Origin: an uncultured Acidobacteriia bacterium
Lineage (GTDB): Bacteria; Acidobacteriota; Terriglobia; Bryobacterales; Bryobacteraceae
Assembly (NCBI GenBank): GCA_903923395.1
Contig: CAIXXM010000085.1
Span: forward strand, 1 to 64,000
Length of the DNA: 64,000 nucleotides
Direction of reading: 5' to 3'
Below the pieces are notes generated by a model. The model did no database searches, was not told where the DNA came from, and worked only from the letters and a program-made list of their open reading frames with translations. Below, piece after piece: positions 9,177-19,591 of this stretch (position 1 is the stretch's first letter; every line of letters begins with the position of its first letter). Made by a program: the position numbers and the translations under genes.

Positions 9177-10765
9177 AGGCCTTTGCGAATCTCTTCACGG
9201 CTCTGGATGAGACAACGAAAACCAACGCCAAAGTGGAAGCGCTGGTGGCGTATTTCCGCGCGGTGCCCCCGGAAGATGCGGTCTGGGCGATGCACTTTCT
9301 AATTGGGCGGCGTCCCAGGCGCTTGATTGAAACGCGCAAGCTGGTGGAGTGGGCCACGGCGGAAGCGCAGGTGCCGGATTGGATCTTTGCGGATAGTTAC
9401 GCGGCCGTGGGCGACCTTGCGGAAACCATCGCGCTGTTATTGCCCGCGCCCTCGGAATCGAGTTCCCTGCCGTTGCATTACTGGATTGAAGAGCGCTTGC
9501 TGCCGCTGCGGCACTGGCCCGATGATGTCCGGCAAGCGGCATTACTTTCGGCCTGGCGCGAGATGGATGAAGCACAGCGCTTCGTCTGGAACAAACTCAT
9601 CACCGGGGAGTTCCGCGTGGGGGTCTCACAAAGCCTGGTGGTGCGCGCCATTGCGGAGGTTTCGGGATTATCGACTGAAGTGATCGCCCACCGGCTGATG
9701 GGAGACTGGCAACCGAATCCTGCGTTCTACGAAACGCTGCTCTCGAAAGATACGGATGATACCGATTCGAGCCGGCCTTATCCGTTCTTCCTGGCCTATC
9801 CGATGGAGGAGGAAGTTACAGCCCTCGGCAAGCCGGAGGATTGGCTGGTTGAGTGGAAATGGGATGGCATCCGCAGTCAGGTGATCCGGCGGAAGTGGAA
9901 TACCTATATCTGGTCGCGGGGCGAAGAACTGGTTACCGAGCGCTTCCCGGAACTGCAGGCGCTGGGTGCCATGCTGCCGGAAGGCACGGTGATCGACGGG
10001 GAAATCCTGCCGTGGAAAGACGGCCTGCCGTTACCTTTTTCGCAAATGCAGCGGCGTATTGGACGGAAAGTGCTGGGACCCAAGATACTGGCGGACGTGC
10101 CGGTCATCCTGCTCGCGTACGACCTGATGGAGTGGCAGGGAGTAGATATCCGGGAAAGCCCCCTCGAAGAGCGGCGGGCTTTGTTGACGGACTTAGTGGC
10201 TTCGCTGCAACATACCGGCCGTATACGGCTCTCAGAACCCGTGGCGTTCTGCACCTGGGAAGAGTTGAGCGCCCTGCGCAGCTTGTCACGCGAGAGGCGC
10301 GTGGAAGGTTTCATGTTGAAGCGGATGGGCTCCCCGTATCGGACCGGGCGGCGGCGCGGGGATTGGTGGAAGTGGAAGATCGAACCCTATTCCGTGGATT
10401 GTGTTTTGACCTACGCGCAGCCGGGCCATGGCCGCCGCGCCAGCGTCTTTACGGACTATACCTTCGGGATCTGGAAAGACGGCGAACTGGTTACTTTCGC
10501 GAAAGCTTACTCCGGACTAACTGACGCCGAGATCAACCGTGTGGATGCCTGGATCAAACGGAATACGCTGGAGCGCTTTGGGCCGGTGCGGCGGGTGAAA
10601 CCGGAACTCGTCTTTGAGCTGGCCTTCGAGGGGATTCAGCAGAGTTCCCGGCATAAATCTGGCCTTGCCGTGCGGTTCCCGCGCATCGCCCGCTGGCGCG
10701 AGGATAAACCCGCTGCTGAAGCGGATTCAATAGAGACCATACTGGGGTTGCTATGTTCGAAATGA
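9173..10765 (+). CDS. ATP-dependent DNA ligase
   Basis: 530 residues. An N-terminal helical DNA-binding domain occupies about 1-200. The nucleotidyltransferase domain follows with motif I EWKWDGIR (AMP-accepting K229), motif III VIDGEILPW, motif IV EGFMLKR and motif V WWKWKIEP, then an OB-fold ending in VRFPRIARWREDKP. It seals nicks in duplex DNA using ATP and is distinct from the essential NAD ligase. The 4-bp overlap with the exonuclease gene marks a repair pair. The Lhr helicase and PdeM phosphoesterase genes often found with this pair are not here. The last 13 bp overlap the thioesterase start. Confidence 0.93.
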   Translation: MKAFANLFTALDETTKTNAKVEALVAYFRAVPPEDAVWAMHFLIGRRPRRLIETRKLVEWATAEAQVPDWIFADSYAAVGDLAETIALLLPAPSESSSLPLHYWIEERLLPLRHWPDDVRQAALLSAWREMDEAQRFVWNKLITGEFRVGVSQSLVVRAIAEVSGLSTEVIAHRLMGDWQPNPAFYETLLSKDTDDTDSSRPYPFFLAYPMEEEVTALGKPEDWLVEWKWDGIRSQVIRRKWNTYIWSRGEELVTERFPELQALGAMLPEGTVIDGEILPWKDGLPLPFSQMQRRIGRKVLGPKILADVPVILLAYDLMEWQGVDIRESPLEERRALLTDLVASLQHTGRIRLSEPVAFCTWEELSALRSLSRERRVEGFMLKRMGSPYRTGRRRGDWWKWKIEPYSVDCVLTYAQPGHGRRASVFTDYTFGIWKDGELVTFAKAYSGLTDAEINRVDAWIKRNTLERFGPVRRVKPELVFELAFEGIQQSSRHKSGLAVRFPRIARWREDKPAAEADSIETILGLLCSK

Positions 10766-11142
10766 CAATTACGGCGGCACAGGAAGATACAGATCAACTG
10801 GGGCACGTGAATAACATCACTTATCTCCGGTGGGTGCAGGAGATCGCGATTGCCCACTGGAATGCCCTGGCGCCCGCAGAAGATATTGAAAAGCTGCTCT
10901 GGGTGGTGCTTCGGCATGAGATTGACTACAAGGCGCAAGCCTTCGCGGGGGATGTACTTACTGTGCGGACATGGGTGGGTGCCGCAGGCCGGTTGAAATT
11001 CGAACGCAATACGGAGATCCTGCGCGGCGGGAAGCTGCTCGCAAAGGCTTTGACCGTATGGTGCCCCATCGACCGTGCGACGGGGCGCCCCACGGCTCCC
11101 GGTGAGATCGTCCGGGCGCTGTTTTCAAACGCTAACGGGTAA
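10753..11142 (+). CDS. Acyl-CoA thioesterase, 4HBT hotdog fold
   Basis: 129 residues of single hotdog-domain length. The family motif is DTDQLGHVNNITYLRWVQE, with the catalytic aspartate-type residue and GHVNN loop typical of YbgC/FadM-like thioesterases, followed by HEIDYKAQAFAGDVLTVRTWV. It hydrolyses an acyl-CoA; the chain type is not predictable. The start lies inside the end of the ligase gene, and its 3' end overlaps the convergent hisA 3' end by 18 bp, leaving no room for a dedicated terminator. Confidence 0.85.
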   Translation: MFEMTITAAQEDTDQLGHVNNITYLRWVQEIAIAHWNALAPAEDIEKLLWVVLRHEIDYKAQAFAGDVLTVRTWVGAAGRLKFERNTEILRGGKLLAKALTVWCPIDRATGRPTAPGEIVRALFSNANG

Positions 11143-11829
11143 CTGCGCGAGTTCCGCCAGATCCAGGCGTCCGGTATAGATGGCCATGCCGACGGCCGCG
11201 TGGATCTTCATTGCATCGAGAGCGCGGATATCTTCGATGGTCGTCACGCCGCCAGCCGCGGTAATTTCATGCTGCGTGGCATTGCGCAAACGCTGGAACC
11301 AGCCCAGATCCGTTCCTTGCATCATGCCTTCCTTATCCACATAAGTGCAAAGGAAGCCGCCGCAGTAAGGTTCCAACTGGCTGACAACCTCTTCGGCGGT
11401 GAAGTTCATCGCCTGCCGCCAGCCTTTGACAACGATACGTCCGTCTTTGGAATCGAGCGCGATGATAATCTGCTCCCTGCCGACGGCGTCCGCGAGGGAT
11501 TGCAGAAATTCGAAGTTCGGACCGGCTTCCCCAAATGCGGAAGTCCCCACAATTACTTTGTGTGCGCCCTGCCGGAGCAATGTGCGGGCGCGCTCGACCG
11601 TGCGGACACCACCGCCGATCCTTGTCTTCGCCTTCGCTGCCACCAGTTCGACTAGTTCATCATTGAAACCCTTGCCAATCGCGGCATCGAGATCAATCAC
11701 CTGGATCTCTGGAAAGGCGCTGAACTTCCGCAGCATCTCTTCCGGGCTGTCCGCCTCCAAAGCCTTTTCCCGGCCCTGGACCAGTTGGACGACCTTGCCC
11801 TCCATCAAATCAATACACGGAATAATCAA
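11125..11829 (-). CDS. hisA: HisA, ProFAR isomerase
   Basis: 234 residues. The TIM-barrel signature opens with [18 protein letters not shown] and continues [15 protein letters not shown] and ITAAGGVTT. It isomerises ProFAR to PRFAR in histidine synthesis. The start is TTG in a TTGA overlap with the hisF stop, with AGGAAA upstream. It is the last gene of the his operon and overlaps the convergent thioesterase gene. Confidence 0.95.
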
Positions 11830-12590
11830 AGCGTTTTCCTAACCGGAATCCCTTCTTTGTCGAGATACTCTTTGAGATCGTTGACGGTATAAGTGCCGAA
11901 GTGGAAGATAGACGCGGCAAGTGCGGCATCGGCCTCCCCTTCCGTAAGAACGCGGACGAAATGTTCGGGTTGACCGGCACCGCCGGAGGCAATCACGGGG
12001 ATGCGGGTCGCCCGGGAAACTGCGCTGGTGAGGGCGCAATCGAAACCCGTTTGCACGCCGTCAGTATCCATCGAAGTAAGCAGGATCTCACCGGCCCCGA
12101 GTTCTTCGCCTTTGCGGGCCCACTCCACCACGTCCAGACCTTCATCATCCCGGCCGCCCCTGGTGTAAACATGCCAGCCGCCGCCTGCATGACGGCGCGC
12201 ATCAATGGCCAGCACAACAGCCTGGGCACCAAATTCGAGACTAAGTTCCGAGATCAATTCCGGTCGCCGGACAGCGGCGGTATTGACCGACACCTTATCT
12301 GCGCCGGACATGAGAATCAACCTCGCATCCGCAATGGACCGGATGCCGCCGCCAACCGCGAGCGGAATAAACACCTTGCGCGCGGTCTTTGCAACCACAT
12401 CGGCCATGGTGGCGCGGGCATCACTGGAAGCAGTGATATCCAGAAAGACCACTTCATCGGCACCCTGCTGGTTATACCGGTCAGCGAGTTCCACGGGGTC
12501 ACCGGCATCCCGCAGGTTCACAAAATTGACGCCTTTGACGACGCGGCCCGCGGTGACATCCAGACAGGGAATAATTCGTTTCGCCAGCAT
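11826..12590 (-). CDS. hisF: HisF, cyclase subunit of imidazole glycerol phosphate synthase
   Basis: 254 residues with the HisF signature [22 protein letters not shown], and the catalytic aspartates fall in CLDV and [14 protein letters not shown]. It uses ammonia from HisH to convert PRFAR to imidazole glycerol phosphate plus AICAR. It starts with ATG one base after the hisH stop and overlaps hisA by 4 bp. Normal length for the family. Confidence 0.96.
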
Positions 12591-12591
12591 C

Positions 12592-13185
12592 TTATAACCT
12601 CACAAAGTTGCGGACGATACCAAGACCAATCGCGCCTGACTTTTCCGGATGGCATTGCACGCCGAAGATATTCCCCGCCTCCAACACAGCGGTGTATGGC
12701 ATGGAATAACTGCAGACTGCCGCTGCCTGATCCACCACCGGCACATAGTAACTGTGGGCAAAATAGACATAGGGGCTCTCCGGCAGATCCGCCAGGAGCT
12801 TTGATTCCCGCACGCGCTGCAAATTGTTCCAGCCCATATGCGGTACGCGGAGATCATTGGGGAAACGGGTGACCGTACCGGGGAAGATACCAAGACCCCG
12901 CTCGCCGGGCGCTTCTTCGCTCGCTTCAAACAGGCCTTGCAGGCCGAGGCAGATCCCGAGGAAAGGCACACCGGCATGCAACCGCGCCACCAGAGTCTGG
13001 CGGACATCCATGTCATCCAACGCACGCAGCATTTGCCCGAAATGGCCAACACCGGGGAGGATAATCTTCTCTGCCGTCTCCAGACCCGCGCGGTCACGCA
13101 CCAGCTCGTAACCCGACCCAATCTCCTCCAGCGTGTTCTGCACGCTGCGGAGATTACCTGCCCCGTAATCGAAGATAGAAACCAC
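12592..13185 (-). CDS. hisH: HisH, glutaminase subunit of imidazole glycerol phosphate synthase
   Basis: 197 residues. Class-I glutamine amidotransferase with [11 protein letters not shown] at the N-terminus, nucleophile Cys in [10 protein letters not shown], and the His/Glu pair in VQCHPEKSG. It supplies ammonia to HisF. The GTG start directly follows the TAA of hisB with no spacer, consistent with coupled translation. Confidence 0.95.
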
Positions 13186-13776
13186 TTAGAGCAACCCCTT
13201 CGTGGAAGGCAACTGATCTTTCAACCGCTCATCGGTGGAGCAGGCATAGCGCATCGCCCGCGCCCAGCACTTGAAGATAGCTTCCAGCTTGTGGTGATTC
13301 GAGCGGCCATACAGGACCTTGGCATGGAAATTCGCTCCGGCATGCACGGTGAAGCCGTCGAAGAAATCATGCATCAGTTCGGACTGCAGATCGCCCACCA
13401 GACGGGTCTTGACCAGATCTTTGTACACCAGCGCCGGACGTCCGCCGAGATCCACAGCTACCACGGCGAGTGTCTCATACATCGGCAGAACAAAGTAACC
13501 CGCGCGGTTGATGCCCTTGCGGTCACCCAGTGCTTTGGCGAATAACTGGCCGATGACGATACCGACATCTTCCACCGTGTGGTGCTGATCGACATCCAGA
13601 TCACCCGTGGCCTTCAACTGGAGATCAAAGCCGCCATGTTTGGTGAACAGTTCCAGCATGTGGTCAAAGAAGCGGATGCCGGTGGATATCTCATACTGGC
13701 CCAGGCCCTCCAGAGTCAGAGAGCCTGAGATCTGCGTCTCCTTTGTGTCGCGTTGAATCTGAGCGGTTCTAGCCAA
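13186..13776 (-). CDS. hisB: HisB, imidazoleglycerol-phosphate dehydratase (monofunctional)
   Basis: 196 residues from a TTG at 13776, which is preceded by GGAGG and overlaps the HAD gene by 8 bp. The longer frame reaching 13935 runs inside the HAD gene and is not credible. Manganese-site histidines are present in [19 protein letters not shown] and [14 protein letters not shown]. It dehydrates imidazole glycerol phosphate to imidazole acetol phosphate. It lacks the N-terminal phosphatase domain of the enterobacterial bifunctional HisB, so another protein must supply the phosphatase. Confidence 0.93.
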
Positions 13777-14440
13777 GCACGGCCTCCAGTGAATTAATAT
13801 CGTCCAGCACGGCGACGGCACCTTCCGCGCGCAGTAACTCCACCACCTCGGCATGACGGGGATTCGAGGGCGCGGCGATCCCGATGAAAGGAACACCCGC
13901 AGCTTTGCCAGCCCTGGCATCATCCACCGTGTCACCGATGTACCAGCACTTCTGATGCTCCACTGCCTGACGGATTTTGAAGATACCTTCGGGATGCGGT
14001 TTGGTTTGGGCCACCATATCCGCGCCGATGACGTGGGGAAAAAGACCAGGAGCGAAGCGGTTCGCGGTCAGCATGGCTTCGTCGTAGTAACGTCCCGTGA
14101 AGACGGCGAGATGATAGCTTTCCCGCAACCGTTCAAAGAGGCCGGGTTCCGCGACCCACTCTTCCTTCAGGATTAAGCCATTCGTACCATCGCCGAGAAA
14201 CAGCTCTTGGAAAGTATCCACAACCGCAGGAAAGGTGACACATATGCCGCGCTCCCGGATCATCTCATGAGAGAGCTTCCAGTCATCGTTATAACCACCG
14301 CGGTTCTTCCAGGTCTGTATCTCATCATTTCCCGGAGCATATCCGGTGTAATGTTGCACAGTGGCTTGAATCGCGGCGCGATAGGAAGCAGTCACTTCCA
14401 CCAGCACGCCATCCATGTCAAAGATAAGTAGATCTTTCAC
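13769..14440 (-). CDS. HAD-family phosphatase in his operon; candidate histidinol-phosphate phosphatase
   Basis: 223 residues of the HAD superfamily: motif [10 protein letters not shown] (D8, D10), a cap domain with [11 protein letters not shown], motif II VFTGRY, motif III lysine in QTKPHPEG and motif [14 protein letters not shown]. It sits between hisC and hisB, overlapping both (GTG start in GTGA with the hisC stop; its 3' end overlaps hisB). HisB here lacks a phosphatase domain and no PHP-type or IMPase-type HisN is present, so histidinol-phosphate dephosphorylation is the natural role by context. A related HAD substrate cannot be excluded from sequence alone. Confidence 0.8.
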
Positions 14441-15492
14441 CAGATACGCTCCAGTTCCTGCAGCACCGTTTGTGCCTGTTCGCGGGTCCCGACCGTGATC
14501 CGGACACCGCCCGGGATCTCATAACTGCGGTCGCGGACAAGGATGCCCTTGGCACGCAGCGCATCGCGAACTTCCAGAGCACGGTGTCCAAAATAGCCGA
14601 GTACGAAGTTTGCCGAACTATTGGCTGATTCTATGCCTTTGACCTGCAGGCCGGCTTTCAAGCAGCGCCTGGCTTCCAGGGCTTCCGCAACATAGTTAGC
14701 AACGTACCCTGTATCTGACACAGCGGCTTCGGCAGCCAGTGCGGCCAGGGCATTGACGCTGTAAGGCGATTGCGCCTTGTGCATCATACTCACGTTGCCG
14801 GACTGTGAGAAGAGACAGCCGAAGCGCATCGCGGCCATGCCGTAAACCTTGGAGAAAGTGCGGCTGACGAAGAGATTCGGATATTTCGCAAGCAAGGGCA
14901 AAGCCGTGATGCCGCAGAACTCGAAGTACGCCTCATCCACCAGAACCACGGCATGCTCTGCCTTCTTGAGGATCAACTCGATAGCATCCAGCCCGACCGA
15001 AGAGCCGGTTGGATTATTCGGATTCGAAATAAAGACAGCGCGGGTTGCCGGTTGGATCGCTTCAAGATACTGTTCGAGTGGAAAGTCACACTCGGGCGGA
15101 AGATAACTGACTTCCCTCACCTTCGCCCCGGCCAGTTCGGAATAGAACCGGTACATGGCATAGGAAGGCTTGGCGATCAAGACTTCCGTGCCGGCATCCA
15201 CATAGGTATTGACCAGAACCTGGATCGCCTCGTCTGTGCCATTCGTCAGCAGCATCTCCGCGGAATCGACGCCGAAGAACTGACTTAGCGTCTCTCTCAC
15301 GCGCGCATAGTCAGGATATACAGCCAGTGCTTCTGCCGAAAGCTGCTCACGCAGGAAGGCAATTACTTTGGGGGAAGCGCCGACCGTGTTCTCATTGAAG
15401 TCAAAGCGGGCCTTGCCCAAACGCCCACCAGTTGGCGGATGATAAGGCGCCATGTCGAGCACCGCTTTTCTTGGTTTGACCGGATCAGGCAA
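14437..15492 (-). CDS. hisC: HisC, histidinol-phosphate aminotransferase
   Basis: 351 residues from a TTG at 15492 that has GGAGG six bases upstream and overlaps the hisD stop by 8 bp. An upstream ATG at 15516 would extend it into hisD without a better ribosome site. Fold-type I PLP enzyme: RFDFNENTVGASP, TNGTDEAIQVLV, SNPNNPTGSSVG, DEAYFEFCG and the PLP lysine in SRTFSKVYGMAAMRFG. It transaminates imidazole acetol phosphate with glutamate. Confidence 0.93.
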   Translation of the reverse strand: MPDPVKPRKAVLDMAPYHPPTGGRLGKARFDFNENTVGASPKVIAFLREQLSAEALAVYPDYARVRETLSQFFGVDSAEMLLTNGTDEAIQVLVNTYVDAGTEVLIAKPSYAMYRFYSELAGAKVREVSYLPPECDFPLEQYLEAIQPATRAVFISNPNNPTGSSVGLDAIELILKKAEHAVVLVDEAYFEFCGITALPLLAKYPNLFVSRTFSKVYGMAAMRFGCLFSQSGNVSMMHKAQSPYSVNALAALAAEAAVSDTGYVANYVAEALEARRCLKAGLQVKGIESANSSANFVLGYFGHRALEVRDALRAKGILVRDRSYEIPGGVRITVGTREQAQTVLQELERIW

Positions 15493-16726
15493 GCCGCACC
15501 TCCACGGACCGCGCATGGGCTTCCAGACCTTCGGCCCGCGCCAGAGTTGTCACGGCCGGTGCGATTGCAGCCAAAGCATCGCGATCCAAATGCTGCACGG
15601 AGATCACCTTCACATAATCCGCCGCATTCAAACCGCCGCGAAGGCGGGCCACGCCGCTGGTGGGGAGTACGTGATTTGGACCGGAAGCGTAATCGCCGGC
15701 AGCTTCCGGGCTGTAGGGGCCAACAAAGATACTGCCTGCATGAATGATCTTCGGGATCAATTCTTCATGATGGATCGAGAGGTGTTCCGGTGCGAAGCGA
15801 TTGGAAATCTCTACGGCCTCATCGAGGCTCTTCACCAACACAATCGCGCTGTTCTTATCGATTGCCCTGCGCGCCACGGCTGCGGTCGTCAGGGTGGCTA
15901 ACTGCTTCTCGATTTCCTTTGCCACCTTGTTAGCGAGCCGCTTTGACGTTGTCAGCAGAATGGCACTGGCATCCGTATCATGTTCCGCCTGGGCCAACAT
16001 ATCGGCGGCAAGATAGGCAGGGTCACCATCGGCGGCGATGATCAGGATCTCTGTGGGCCCGGCGACGAAGTCGATACCGGTCTCTCCGGCAATCAGCTTC
16101 TTGGCAGCGGCAACATAGATATTTCCCGGGCCGACAATCCGGTCCGCCCGCGGCACAGTCTTGGTTCCATAAGCAAATGCGGCGACCGCTTGCGCCCCGC
16201 CCATGAGGAAAACATGATCCACGCCGAGGATATACGCCGTGCCGAAGACCTCATCCACCGGCTTGGGGCAGGCGACGCAGACATTCGGAACACCGGCCAC
16301 TTTCGCCGGCACCGTGGTCATAATCACGGTGGAAGGCAAAGGATATCTGCCCGCCGGGATATAACATCCCACCGTATCGAGAGGCCGCACCACCTGGCCT
16401 AACTTGCGCCCGGGACCGAACGGTGCTGTGTATTCTCTGGGTAACTGGCGTTCCGCATAGGCCCGCACGTTCGCGGCGGCCTGTTCTACTGCTGCGCGGA
16501 ACTGTGGCGTGAGACGTCCGGCCGCGGCGGCCAGTTCTTCATTGGGAACCCTGACGGTTTTGCGCTCCAGCCCGTCAAACTTTTTAGCGTATTCAAGCAG
16601 CCCCTTGTCCCCGCGCTTGCGCACGGCTTCCAGAATCGGACGCACCACCTCTTCCGCGTCAGATAACTTCGCGGCCCGCCGGGAAAGCACCTTTCCCATG
16701 TCCTTGGATTCCAGTATCCGGATCAT
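15485..16726 (-). CDS. hisD: HisD, histidinol dehydrogenase
   Basis: 413 residues from the ATG at 16726, 10 bp after the hisG stop; the in-frame ATG at 16783 lies within hisG and adds residues absent from the family. Typical motifs are GCYIPAGRYPLPSTV, VGPGNIYVAAAKK, GPTEILIIAADGDP, the zinc/catalytic stretch LAQAEHDTDASAILL, and FAPEHLSIHHEE. It performs the two NAD-dependent oxidations from histidinol to histidine. The C-terminal part GLNAADYVKVISVQ is intact. Confidence 0.94.
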   Translation of the reverse strand: MIRILESKDMGKVLSRRAAKLSDAEEVVRPILEAVRKRGDKGLLEYAKKFDGLERKTVRVPNEELAAAAGRLTPQFRAAVEQAAANVRAYAERQLPREYTAPFGPGRKLGQVVRPLDTVGCYIPAGRYPLPSTVIMTTVPAKVAGVPNVCVACPKPVDEVFGTAYILGVDHVFLMGGAQAVAAFAYGTKTVPRADRIVGPGNIYVAAAKKLIAGETGIDFVAGPTEILIIAADGDPAYLAADMLAQAEHDTDASAILLTTSKRLANKVAKEIEKQLATLTTAAVARRAIDKNSAIVLVKSLDEAVEISNRFAPEHLSIHHEELIPKIIHAGSIFVGPYSPEAAGDYASGPNHVLPTSGVARLRGGLNAADYVKVISVQHLDRDALAAIAPAVTTLARAEGLEAHARSVEVRLA

Positions 16727-16736
16727 AGCGGTGCCC

Positions 16737-17606
16737 TTAGAACACGATCTTATTGAGCGGATATTCCACAATGCCCTCGGCACCGGCTGCTTTCAGCCGC
16801 GGAATAATCATCCGGACTGTCGATTCATCAAGAATCGTATTTACAGCGAACCATTCCGGGTCACTCAGGGCAGATACCGTGGGCCCCTTCAACGAAGGCA
16901 GGACACCGATCACGTTCTGCAGCGAATCCCTGTGCACGTTCAGCATCAGGCCGACTTTGCCCAGCGCATTAATCGCGCCTTCGAGCAGCATCTTCAGGTC
17001 ATCGAGCTTCTGGCGCTTCCAGGGGTCCAACATCGACTGGTTATTGACGATCAACTGCGTGTTGGATTCGAGCACCGTCTCCACAATGCGCAACTTATTG
17101 GCGCGCAGCGAAGAACCGGTTTCCGTCACTTCCACGATGGCATCGGCCAGCACGGGCGGTTTCACTTCCGTGGCACCCCAGCTGAATTCCACCTTCGCAT
17201 TCACGCCGTTGCGTTCCAGATAGCGCTTGGTGGTGGCGACCAGTTCGGTTGCGATGATCTTGCCTTCCAGATCTTTCACAGACTGGATCGGGCCGCTCTC
17301 CGGCACGGCGAGCACCCAGCGGACCTTGCCGAAGCTTTGCTTGGCGTAGATCAGATCGGCGAAGGGGTGTACGTTCGCGCCCACCTCCTCCACCCAGTCG
17401 CGTCCGGTCAGGCCGGCATCGAGAATGCCATCTTCGACATAGCGGGCCATTTCCTGCGCGCGGATGAGCATGCACTCCATTTCCGGGTCATCGATCGCCG
17501 GAAAGTAAGATCGCGAGCTCGTGGTGATATTGAAACCTGCGCGGCGGAAGAGATCCACCGTGGCGTTTTCCAGACTGCCTTTGGGAATACCGAGTTTGAG
17601 CTTCAC
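16737..17606 (-). CDS. hisG: HisG, ATP phosphoribosyltransferase (long form)
   Basis: 289 residues. This is the long form with a C-terminal regulatory domain, so no HisZ partner is needed and histidine feedback inhibition is expected. Motifs include [42 protein letters not shown] and [16 protein letters not shown]. It condenses ATP and PRPP in the first committed step. It starts with GTG in a GTGA overlap with the hisI stop, with GGAGG upstream. Confidence 0.95.
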
Positions 17607-17992
17607 TTTGCGCCTCCATAGACCGCTGCGGGGTCATACACACGTTCTTCGGAAACAGACCAGGTATCGCCTTCCAGACGGCGGAAGAAGCAACTCTGGT
17701 AGCCTTCGTGACAAACGCCGGGGCCCAGGGCTTCCACCTGAATCAGGACCGTATCGAGATCGCAGTCCGTTGAGATCTCTTTTACGACCAGCGTGTGACC
17801 GGAGGTTTCCCCTTTGGTCCACAGCTTGTTGCGCGTGCGGCTGTAAAAAGTCACATTGCCGGTGTCGCGGGTCTTTCGCCAGGCTTCTTCATTCATGAAG
17901 CCCACCATCAATACGCGGCCCGTCGCCGCATCCTGCACTACCGCCGGCAGCAGGCCGTCCAGTTTTTGAAAATCGAGTTCCATTGCTCCCAT
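17603..17992 (-). CDS. hisI: HisI, phosphoribosyl-AMP cyclohydrolase (monofunctional)
   Basis: 129 residues. Metal-site and signature residues lie in [39 protein letters not shown] and [12 protein letters not shown]. It opens the purine ring of PR-AMP. There is no C-terminal HisE (pyrophosphohydrolase) domain, and no hisE gene exists in the window, so that step must be encoded elsewhere. It is the first structural gene after the attenuator. The ATG at 17992 was kept; an ATG at 17983 is possible. Confidence 0.93.
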
Positions 17993-18022
17993 CGCTACAC
18001 AGCTCGCCGCGAACCTGGCGGT

Positions 18023-18063
18023 TTTTCTAAAAGAAACGCCCGCCGTTCTGCGCGGCGGGCGTC
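18023..18063 (-). terminator. his operon attenuator terminator
   Basis: On the minus strand a perfect 10-bp stem ACGCCCGCCG / CGGCGGGCGT (18063-18054 and 18046-18037) with a 7-nt loop is followed by TTTCTTTTAG and more. It sits between the His-rich leader peptide and hisI, exactly where transcription attenuation terminators lie. Confidence 0.82.
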
Positions 18064-18157
18064 CTTTCGTTCTGGCTTATTGATTTCGGATTACGCCAGG
18101 ACCGCCCGCACACAATTCGCCCGGTGGTGGTGATGATGCAGATGCAACGGGCTGGCG
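18056..18157 (-). promoter_or_regulatory. his leader alternative structures (pause hairpin and antiterminator)
   Basis: Three mutually exclusive pairings are visible in the leader RNA. CGCCAG (18157-18152, before the His codons) pairs with CUGGCG (18099-18094, at the end of the leader peptide), a pause-type hairpin. GCGGGCGGUCC (18109-18099) pairs with GGACGCCCGC (18065-18056) over 10 bp with one bulged G, an antiterminator using the 5' arm of the terminator. The terminator stem itself is described separately. A ribosome stalled on the His codons would free the second segment and permit read-through. Confidence 0.7.
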
Positions 18158-18171
18158 GCGATCACTGCCAT
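18091..18171 (-). CDS. hisL: HisL, histidine operon leader peptide
   Basis: 26-codon open frame with ATG at 18171 and TAA at 18093-18091, preceded by TTGAGG. Codons 10-16 read His-Leu-His-His-His-His-His (18144-18124), i.e. six His codons in seven. It lies directly upstream of an attenuator terminator and hisI. Its translation should sense charged tRNA-His. It starts only 22 bp after the stop of the HtrA-like gene, so the promoter must lie within the end of that gene or transcription must enter from it. Confidence 0.87.
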   Translation of the reverse strand: MAVIAASPLHLHHHHHRANCVRAVLA

Positions 18172-18193
18172 AAACCTCAAGTTTACCAAGAGC

Positions 18194-19591
18194 CTATTCT
18201 TCGCTGAGCACCAGATAGATGAGATGCCCGCCGCGCTCAATCTGCACCACCAGCGGATCTCCGGTTTTCAGCTGATCGAGCGCCCCCCGCAGCGCCTCCA
18301 AAGTAGTCACTGGACGGCTGTTAACGGTGTAGATAATATCGCCCGGATTCAACCCGCCCTGTCCGTTGTATTCGGCGATCCCGGCCTTGGCAGCCACGAT
18401 CACACCGTACTTGAAGCGGGTATCCGAAACAATCGCGGCCACATCCTGCGTAATCGCAATGCCCACAATGCCAAGGCGCTTCACCGTGTTGGTCTCCGGC
18501 TTCACCAAGTCCGCGAAACGGAAAGGATCATCCTCCGTTTCCTTCACTTTGACCGATATTTCGAGATCAGAACCGCTGCGCTTGACCTTCAGCGTTGCCG
18601 TATCCCCAATGCGCAGTTTGAACAGGCCCACCTCAAATTGACGGGCATTCTCCACCGGCTTGCCATTCAGCGAAACGACGAGATCACCTGTCGCCAGACC
18701 GGCAGCTTCGGCAGGGCCGTCGGGGTCCACATCACTCAGAATGGCACCCCAATCCTGCGGCAGACCCAGGCCAGCCGCCAGTTCGGGTGTCACCGTCTGA
18801 ACCCGGACGCCGATTTCGCCCCGGTGCACGTGACCGTCCTTCACGATCTGTTTGTAAACGTAATCCACCACGTTGCTGGGAATGGCGAACCCAATGCCTT
18901 CACTGCCGCCCGATTGCGACAGGATAAAGGTATTGATCCCCACCACCCTGCCTTCGGAATCCAGCAGCGGACCACCGCTGTTGCCCGGATTGATCGGCGC
19001 GTCGGTCTGTATGTAGCTCATGGGATCGTCCGGCTTGATCTGGCGCGCCACGGAGCTGACCACACCGAGGCTCACCGAGTTTTCCAACCCCAGCGGATTG
19101 CCGAATGCCAGCACGATTTGCCCCTGCTTCAGCGCATCGGAATCAGCCAGTTGCAGGGCGGGCAGCGGTGCCTTTGGTTTGATCTTCAAAACGGCGAGGT
19201 CAATAGTGCGGTCCGTGCCGACGACCTCGGCATCGAGCAAACGGCTCGCGCGGCGCATGTCTGAGGAATCACCCGGGGCCTCGGCCAGCAGTACTTTTAC
19301 TGAGCGCGCCCCCTGCACAACATGGTTGTTGGTGACAATGTAGCCATCCGGCCCAAGGATTACGCCGGACCCCGTGCTCTTCTGTTTCGTCACCAGGCCA
19401 GTGGAGTGGCTGTTTTCTTCGCTGTCACTGCCAATGGAATAGCCGGTGGAGAAGACCTGGACCACCGAGGCATGGACCTTCTTCGAAAGGACCTGAATAG
19501 AGTCACTGAGGTCATGCAGGGCATCGCGCTTCGTCTGCGCCTGCGCCAGAACTGGCAGGAACAGGAATCCGAGAGAAATCCAACGCTTCAT
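18194..19591 (-). CDS. HtrA/Deg-type periplasmic serine protease with two PDZ domains
   Basis: 465 residues with a signal peptide (LGFLFLPVLAQAQ). Trypsin-like domain with triad His90 (VTNNHVV), Asp131 (RTIDLAVLK) and Ser205 (NPGNSGGPLL). The first PDZ follows at about 260-350 (IGVRVQTVTPELAAGLGL, AAGLATGDLVVSLNGKPV), and a second, more divergent PDZ at about 370-460 (GGLNPGDIIYTVNSRPV). It degrades or refolds damaged envelope proteins. It is on the same strand as the his operon and ends 22 bp before hisL. Family call is secure; DegP/DegQ/DegS subtype is not. Confidence 0.92.
   Translation of the reverse strand: MKRWISLGFLFLPVLAQAQTKRDALHDLSDSIQVLSKKVHASVVQVFSTGYSIGSDSEENSHSTGLVTKQKSTGSGVILGPDGYIVTNNHVVQGARSVKVLLAEAPGDSSDMRRASRLLDAEVVGTDRTIDLAVLKIKPKAPLPALQLADSDALKQGQIVLAFGNPLGLENSVSLGVVSSVARQIKPDDPMSYIQTDAPINPGNSGGPLLDSEGRVVGINTFILSQSGGSEGIGFAIPSNVVDYVYKQIVKDGHVHRGEIGVRVQTVTPELAAGLGLPQDWGAILSDVDPDGPAEAAGLATGDLVVSLNGKPVENARQFEVGLFKLRIGDTATLKVKRSGSDLEISVKVKETEDDPFRFADLVKPETNTVKRLGIVGIAITQDVAAIVSDTRFKYGVIVAAKAGIAEYNGQGGLNPGDIIYTVNSRPVTTLEALRGALDQLKTGDPLVVQIERGGHLIYLVLSEE

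Follow-up and report, generated by a model that had tools for sequence, protein, structure and literature searches.

Leader-peptide attenuation is a classical mode of regulation, and the question raised by the present locus is whether the histidine operon of an acidobacterium is controlled in this manner. The window, by which we mean the whole stretch of 64,000 nucleotides of DNA that was analysed, comes from a soil bacterium with a genome of 6.15 Mb in 169 contigs, and its HisD protein is closest to those of metagenome-assembled genomes labelled Acidobacteriia, Solibacter or Bryobacterales; an earlier reading made from the sequence alone (the sequence-only reading) had supposed an acidobacterial host, and the nearest relatives are indeed acidobacterial records. 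On the minus strand of the window the first gene of the operon is hisI (17603..17992), which matched the NCBIfam model for phosphoribosyl-AMP cyclohydrolase above its cut-off and whose start codon is at 17992 or, more likely, at 17983. The remaining genes (11125..17606, minus strand), identified from open reading frames and NCBIfam models, give the order hisI-hisG-hisD-hisC-HAD-hisB-hisH-hisF-hisA, where HAD denotes a HAD phosphatase-like gene; the suggestion that the operon is differently ordered is borne out by its beginning with hisI. The E. coli his operon begins with hisG. For both hisA and the HAD protein the best NCBIfam models were matched below the curated cut-off. The HAD-family hydrolase (13769-14440, minus strand; TIGR01548 below cut-off) lies between hisC and hisB and is a candidate histidinol-phosphate phosphatase. 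On the other side of the leader region, an htrA-like gene on the same (minus) strand stops at 18194, with a gap of 5 nt to the extended -10 element of the his promoter described below.

Upstream of hisI, an open reading frame (18171-18091, minus strand) with an ATG start and a TAA stop codon at 18093-18091 encodes the peptide MAVIAASPLHLHHHHHRANCVRAVLA, and such a frame is kept in relatives. Residues 10 and 12-16 of this peptide are His, and the run of six His codons in seven that had been noticed in the sequence-only reading is present at this place in both the sequence and its translation. Between the leader and hisI is located an intrinsic terminator (18029..18062, minus strand), recognised by sequence, by folding and by its presence in relatives, the GC-rich 10-bp stem of which is formed by ACGCCCGCCG (18062-18053) and CGGCGGGCGT (18045-18036) with a 7-nt loop, CGCAGAA, and is followed by the tail TTTCTTTT; the 10-bp terminator with a T-rich tract reported earlier is thereby confirmed. 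A simple terminator scan of the window listed this element solely as a plus-strand site.

The final codons of the leader contain a stretch (segment 2, GCGGGC-G-GTCC, 18109-18099) that forms the 5' side of an antiterminator. Its partner (segment 3, GGACGCCCGC, 18064-18055) can pair either with segment 2, GCGGGC (18109-18104) with GCCCGC (18060-18055) and GTCC (18102-18099) with GGAC (18064-18061), or, over most of its length, with segment 4, and the antiterminator (2:3) and terminator pairings are mutually exclusive. The antiterminator of the sequence-only reading was correct as regards 18109-18099, but the partner that it gave, 18065-18056, was off by one position. Segment 1 (CGCCAG, 18157-18152) is a perfect 6-bp match to CTGGCG at 18099-18094, with which it can form a pause or anti-antiterminator hairpin, and this pairing appears when the whole leader is folded without constraints. 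The minimum free energy of the leader has a z score of -2.34 (2 of 200 shuffles were equally good), and the 2:3 duplex of the window has an energy of -30.6 kcal/mol, whereas its dinucleotide shuffles average -20.4 and its synonymous recodings -18.6. With a ribosome halted at the final His codon, the RNA that it leaves free is predicted to fold into the antiterminator (-24.1) as long as segment 4 has yet to be made, whereas RNA with segment 4 included prefers the terminator even with the ribosome at this codon. In the completed transcript of the leader the antiterminator helix (-16.3) is weaker than that of the terminator (-21.4), and the switch must therefore be kinetic. Kinetic decisions are also found in known attenuators.

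The distribution of these elements was examined in 110 loci first collected and 30 further stretches, 124 of which contained hisI and its upstream sequence; 108 of these were distinct, including three loci labelled as other phyla (L096, L101 and L110). A short open reading frame with at least three His in seven codons and, 15-60 nt past its stop codon, a terminator were found upstream of hisI in 85 of the 108. A stricter combination, consisting of an ATG start, at least four His in seven codons, a terminator, and TAnnnT 7-10 nt upstream, was present in 73 of the 108 compared with 4 of 6000 controls, which were 350-nt windows without a known leader drawn at random from loci L031-L097. The design is thus far commoner before hisI than in the control windows, and a chance match is excluded. 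Within the 85 leaders, His was encoded by 268 CAT and 206 CAC codons; the free use of both codons indicates that the amino acid is kept and not the RNA sequence. Outside the His run the peptide sequence varies widely among relatives.

The leader is lacking under the looser criteria in 23 of the 108 distinct upstream regions, the three loci labelled as other phyla being among them; two others of these 23 (L025 and L038) contain a His-rich open reading frame and look like scan misses. It is present in 14 of 16 genus relatives having hisI (absent in L005/G017 and L009/G014), and in one family (f3) 12 of 18 genomes are without it, duplicate loci having been paired by the length of their contigs. 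In L005, L009 and L024/G019 a terminator and a promoter-like site are retained upstream of hisI and the His run is missing; these may possibly be decayed or rewired attenuators.

The sequence-only reading had hinged upon whether the His run and the pairing segments recur in related genomes. A comparison of the hisI upstream regions shows that relatives, both near and far, conserve the His run together with the 2:3 and 3:4 segments and that co-variation is present. Across the 85 leaders, the 2:3 duplex has a mean energy of -19.0 kcal/mol in comparison to -15.2 when segment 2 is dinucleotide-shuffled and -15.3 when it is synonymously recoded (Wilcoxon p about 2e-13 and 4e-14, respectively, with related sequences treated as independent); 42 of the 85 individual leaders fall in the lowest 10% against shuffles and 38 against recodings. 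Exchange of segment 2 between species weakened the duplex from -19.1 to -17.4, and none of 20000 permutations was as good as the natural combination, with the same outcome (0/20000) for 54 non-redundant leaders. The same test on 38 leaders of a second set, most of which come from other orders and one of which (L158) is common to the first set, gave -22.7 and -19.0, and again 0 of 20000 permutations were as good; all of these permutation tests treat related sequences as independent. Examples of the co-variation are segment 3 GCUGAC with segment 2 GUCAGC (L194) and GCCACC with GGUGGC (L195). Segment 2 is out of register in the MAFFT alignment A1. Counts of 2:3 pairs per position, made on 121 of 122 segment pairs and fitted to the duplex, reveal several standard types of pair in addition to a CCCG core. 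The antiterminator, which is mutually exclusive with the terminator, is therefore backed by co-variation in duplex and swap tests on two sets of leaders. The pause hairpin of the sequence-only reading fared less uniformly: it is strong in the window, with an exact 6-bp match, but across relatives the 1:2 pairing (mean -16.8 compared with -15.1; paired test p 4e-5, with related sequences again treated as independent) lies at or below the 10% level of shuffles in 25 of 85 leaders, which supports such a hairpin weakly.

The median distance from the cluster's last His codon to the start of segment 2 is 12 nt (10-90% range, 3-17). The end of segment 2 falls short of the stop codon by a median of 1 nt (-8 to +8), and the terminator starts at a median of 28 nt past this codon. 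The usual footprint of a ribosome extends about 12 nt downstream of its A site. With this median geometry, a ribosome within the His run would typically leave segment 2 free, whereas one at the stop codon would cover it.

In regard to the start of the transcript, an extended -10 element (TGG-TAAACT, 18180..18188, minus strand), which recurs in relatives, is located 8 nt before the leader ATG with no recognisable -35 element. Transcript starts downstream of the leader would, according to the sequence-only reading, have told against attenuation; the predicted promoter lies directly upstream of it instead. A scored -10 element was found 7-13 nt before the start codon in 79 of the 85 leaders, in 65 of them at 8 nt (41) or 9 nt (24), with 14 having it at some other distance and six having no scored -10. 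A TG-extended -10 at 8 or 9 nt precedes 56 of the 85 leaders, compared with 0.46% of 13273 control ATGs in the loci. In the second set, TAnnnT is present 7-10 nt before the ATG in 36 of 40 leaders compared with 3.1% of 16887 control ATGs; in this set, the start had been picked from the in-frame ATGs with a preference for one preceded by a TAnnnT site. When the 79 promoters were anchored on the -10 element, strong information was present only at T..TG-n-TATACT and just before or at the ATG (T-T-C/T), and no conservation of a -35 element or of a Shine-Dalgarno site was observed. An extended -10 element at 8-9 nt from the ATG leaves no room for a Shine-Dalgarno site. One published criterion for leaderless genes, which in the available part of that study average 13.3% in three acidobacterial genomes, is a TA-like -10 signal some 10 bp upstream of the start codon (PMC3160421), and by this criterion the his leader reading frames are apparently leaderless. 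This architecture, like the sister attenuators described below, had escaped the sequence-only reading.

These observations bear upon a more conventional arrangement, in which the same cis elements would operate and the leader would be translated from a longer transcript that starts upstream and carries a Shine-Dalgarno site. Read-through from htrA is possible in the window, the start of transcription is a predicted one, and 20 of the 85 leaders do not have a -10 element at 8-9 nt, all of which are in accord with such an arrangement. However, the 79 aligned promoters are informative only around TTGnTATACT and before the ATG, with neither a -35 element nor a Shine-Dalgarno site conserved, and other families of the phylum show similar spacing, so we regard the longer transcript as unlikely.

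It may also be asked whether the terminator merely ends the htrA-like gene and the His-rich reading frame is fortuitous. The end of that gene at 18194, on the same strand and 5 nt from the proposed extended -10, could suggest this, but an HtrA gene is upstream of just 2 of the 66 leaders for which at least 600 nt of flanking sequence are available, whereas the short reading frame, the promoter and the terminator stay with hisI. This reading, which the co-variation of the 2:3 pairing in two sets of leaders also contradicts, has been rejected on account of the rarity of HtrA before the leaders and is very improbable. Runs of His are able to bind Ni, Zn or Cu, and the peptide could thus be a small functional metal-binding protein and not a sensor; the rest of the peptide is, however, highly variable, peptides before other operons carry Phe, Tyr and Trp or Ile and Val, and the pairing of segment 2 in the RNA is kept beyond the level of synonymous recoding, making a metal-binding function highly unlikely. 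Control by a T-box or another tRNA- or His-sensing riboswitch, for which the His T-boxes of Firmicutes his genes (PMC9413887, in the part of it available) provide a precedent, is exceedingly improbable in view of the absence of any Rfam match at the gathering score in the window and 10 further loci, the absence of a T-box in 17950-18250 at E values up to 10, and the mostly coding nature of the sequence ahead of the terminator.

The his operon is in our view very probably under ribosome-mediated transcription attenuation, with the leader predicted to be translated from a leaderless transcript having a 5' untranslated region of 0-2 nt. From the elements described above we infer the site of transcript initiation, the translation of the leader and its response to histidine, as follows. 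The polymerase would begin at the first base of the leader ATG or right beside it, and a ribosome would load upon the 5'-terminal AUG and trail the polymerase. With an ample supply of charged tRNA-His, the ribosome would reach the stop codon and cover segment 2, allowing segments 3 and 4 to pair and transcription to terminate before hisI; with tRNA-His scarce, it would stall in the His run before segment 2, segments 2 and 3 would pair and the polymerase would read through. If the leaderless reading is correct, the operon would provide a natural case in which to study how a ribosome can load on a 5'-terminal AUG in time to be coupled to the polymerase over about 140 nt.

To examine the spread of the leader within Acidobacteriota, a covariance model (R1) was built from 38 leaders; of 396 genomes taken from across the phylum, 99 had a match to it at E <= 0.01. 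With the window's own locus set aside, a His-rich, ATG-started leader directly precedes hisI in 26 of the 29 best R1 loci (L158-L186), and a terminator was found by scan in 25 of these; R1 matches below the 30 best were not counted as leaders. No leader was found by scan in L178 and L186, the genome of L178 having a GTG-started leader (L188), and L185 has no hisI in the locus. The leaders at these loci belong to family f1, to family f8 of the same class, and to f21, f30, f34, f52 and others outside this class. A further sample, overlapping that used for R1, was based upon HisI, for which 72 of its 119 genomes gave a match; here a leader is present in 18 of 70 hisI upstream regions (own genome included; G106 and G124 left out). 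All 18 are among the 20 best-scoring HisI matches, the other two of which (L193 and L197) have no leader; the scan found none in the remaining 50 regions, mostly with more distant HisI. With the leader confined to 18 of the 70 upstream regions sampled, it can be said to occur in two or more classes of the phylum but not throughout it.

A search of the same genome for the combination of a -10 element and ATG gave nine matches compared with six for the reversed pattern, and the pattern is thus not enriched by itself. One of the nine (L143/L150; contig C40 near 9995-10150) stood out by its reading frame, which encodes the aromatic leader peptide MTNGTAYYWFWFSTSP, is leaderless-looking and is followed by a terminator and then by a gene for DAHP synthase. 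Likewise a Val/Ile-rich leader, MPLLLTGRITTVSLPVPVTVGIVVVPSPA, with a terminator precedes ilvB (L153; contig C91 upstream of 5337). A short reading frame rich in Phe, Trp and Tyr (at least four in 10 codons) together with a -10 element and a terminator is present in 25 of 30 DAHP-synthase upstream regions, and a candidate rich in Ile, Leu and Val (at least five in 10) with a terminator in 24 of 30 ilvB upstream regions, the window's own genome being included in both; these counts are for the best-scoring candidate per upstream region and stand without a control. In 12 of the 30 ilvB regions the -10 element is 12-13 nt before the ATG, giving a predicted 5' untranslated region of about 5-6 nt, which is too short for a Shine-Dalgarno site. 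Scans near leuA, a trpE-like gene and two homoserine dehydrogenase genes (L151, L317-L319) revealed no leader of this kind. The residues in which the two sister leaders are rich correspond to the pathways of the genes that they precede. We consider it fairly likely that Acidobacteriota possess their own set of leaderless attenuators, probably independently evolved, which respond to His before hisI (in two or more classes), to aromatic amino acids before DAHP synthase and to Val/Ile before ilvB. In such a set, the sensing of the amino acid would start as the polymerase leaves an extended -10 promoter, with no step involving the 30S subunit and a Shine-Dalgarno site.

Attenuators have been predicted earlier in phyla such as Acidobacteria, almost none of them with an associated function according to the available text of Naville and Gautheret (PMC2965389), and no report of a function-assigned leader-peptide attenuator in Acidobacteriota was found in the open-licence literature; our results would allow a function to be proposed for a widely distributed acidobacterial attenuator and for two sister systems. 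The his leader of E. coli and Salmonella (RF00514) likewise consists of a peptide with a His run and of alternative antiterminator and terminator structures before the his operon. The acidobacterial operon differs from it in starting with hisI and in having a leader reading frame that is without a Shine-Dalgarno site and apparently leaderless. No RF00514 match was obtained at the gathering score, either in the window or in a further 10 loci, nor at E values up to 10 in 17950-18250. Thr_leader scored 21 bits against a cut-off of 55 and Trp_leader 15 bits against one of 41; these matches, the alignments of which begin at segment 2 or at the stop codon and run to the terminator, were far too weak and were rejected.

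In the parts of the literature available, his attenuators are described for Proteobacteria and, as predictions, for Firmicutes (PMC9413887, PMC2965389), the latter in the B. cereus group, Peptostreptococcaceae and Erysipelotrichales (PMC9413887), and a His leader of hisS/hisZ is known in bacilli (PMC2965389). The Firmicutes attenuators resemble the present one in having a His-rich leader with a terminator and antiterminator outside Proteobacteria (PMC9413887), as does the hisS/hisZ leader in its His-rich peptide (PMC2965389), but they belong to another phylum, the available text does not mention leaderless initiation for them (PMC9413887, PMC2965389), and the word Acidobacteria is absent from PMC9413887. 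If the proposed mechanism holds, attenuation of his by a leader peptide is thus extended to another phylum. Leaderless leader peptides are reported, in the available portions of these papers, for leuL, trpL and ilvL of Streptomyces lividans (PMC8079986) and trpL of Sinorhizobium meliloti (PMC7298713), and the ilvBNC leader of C. glutamicum is discussed as leaderless (PMC11857589). As far as these portions show, such leaders include no histidine leader and none from Acidobacteriota, but they share with the acidobacterial his leader a reading frame at or near the 5' end of the transcript and a role in the attenuation of amino-acid genes.
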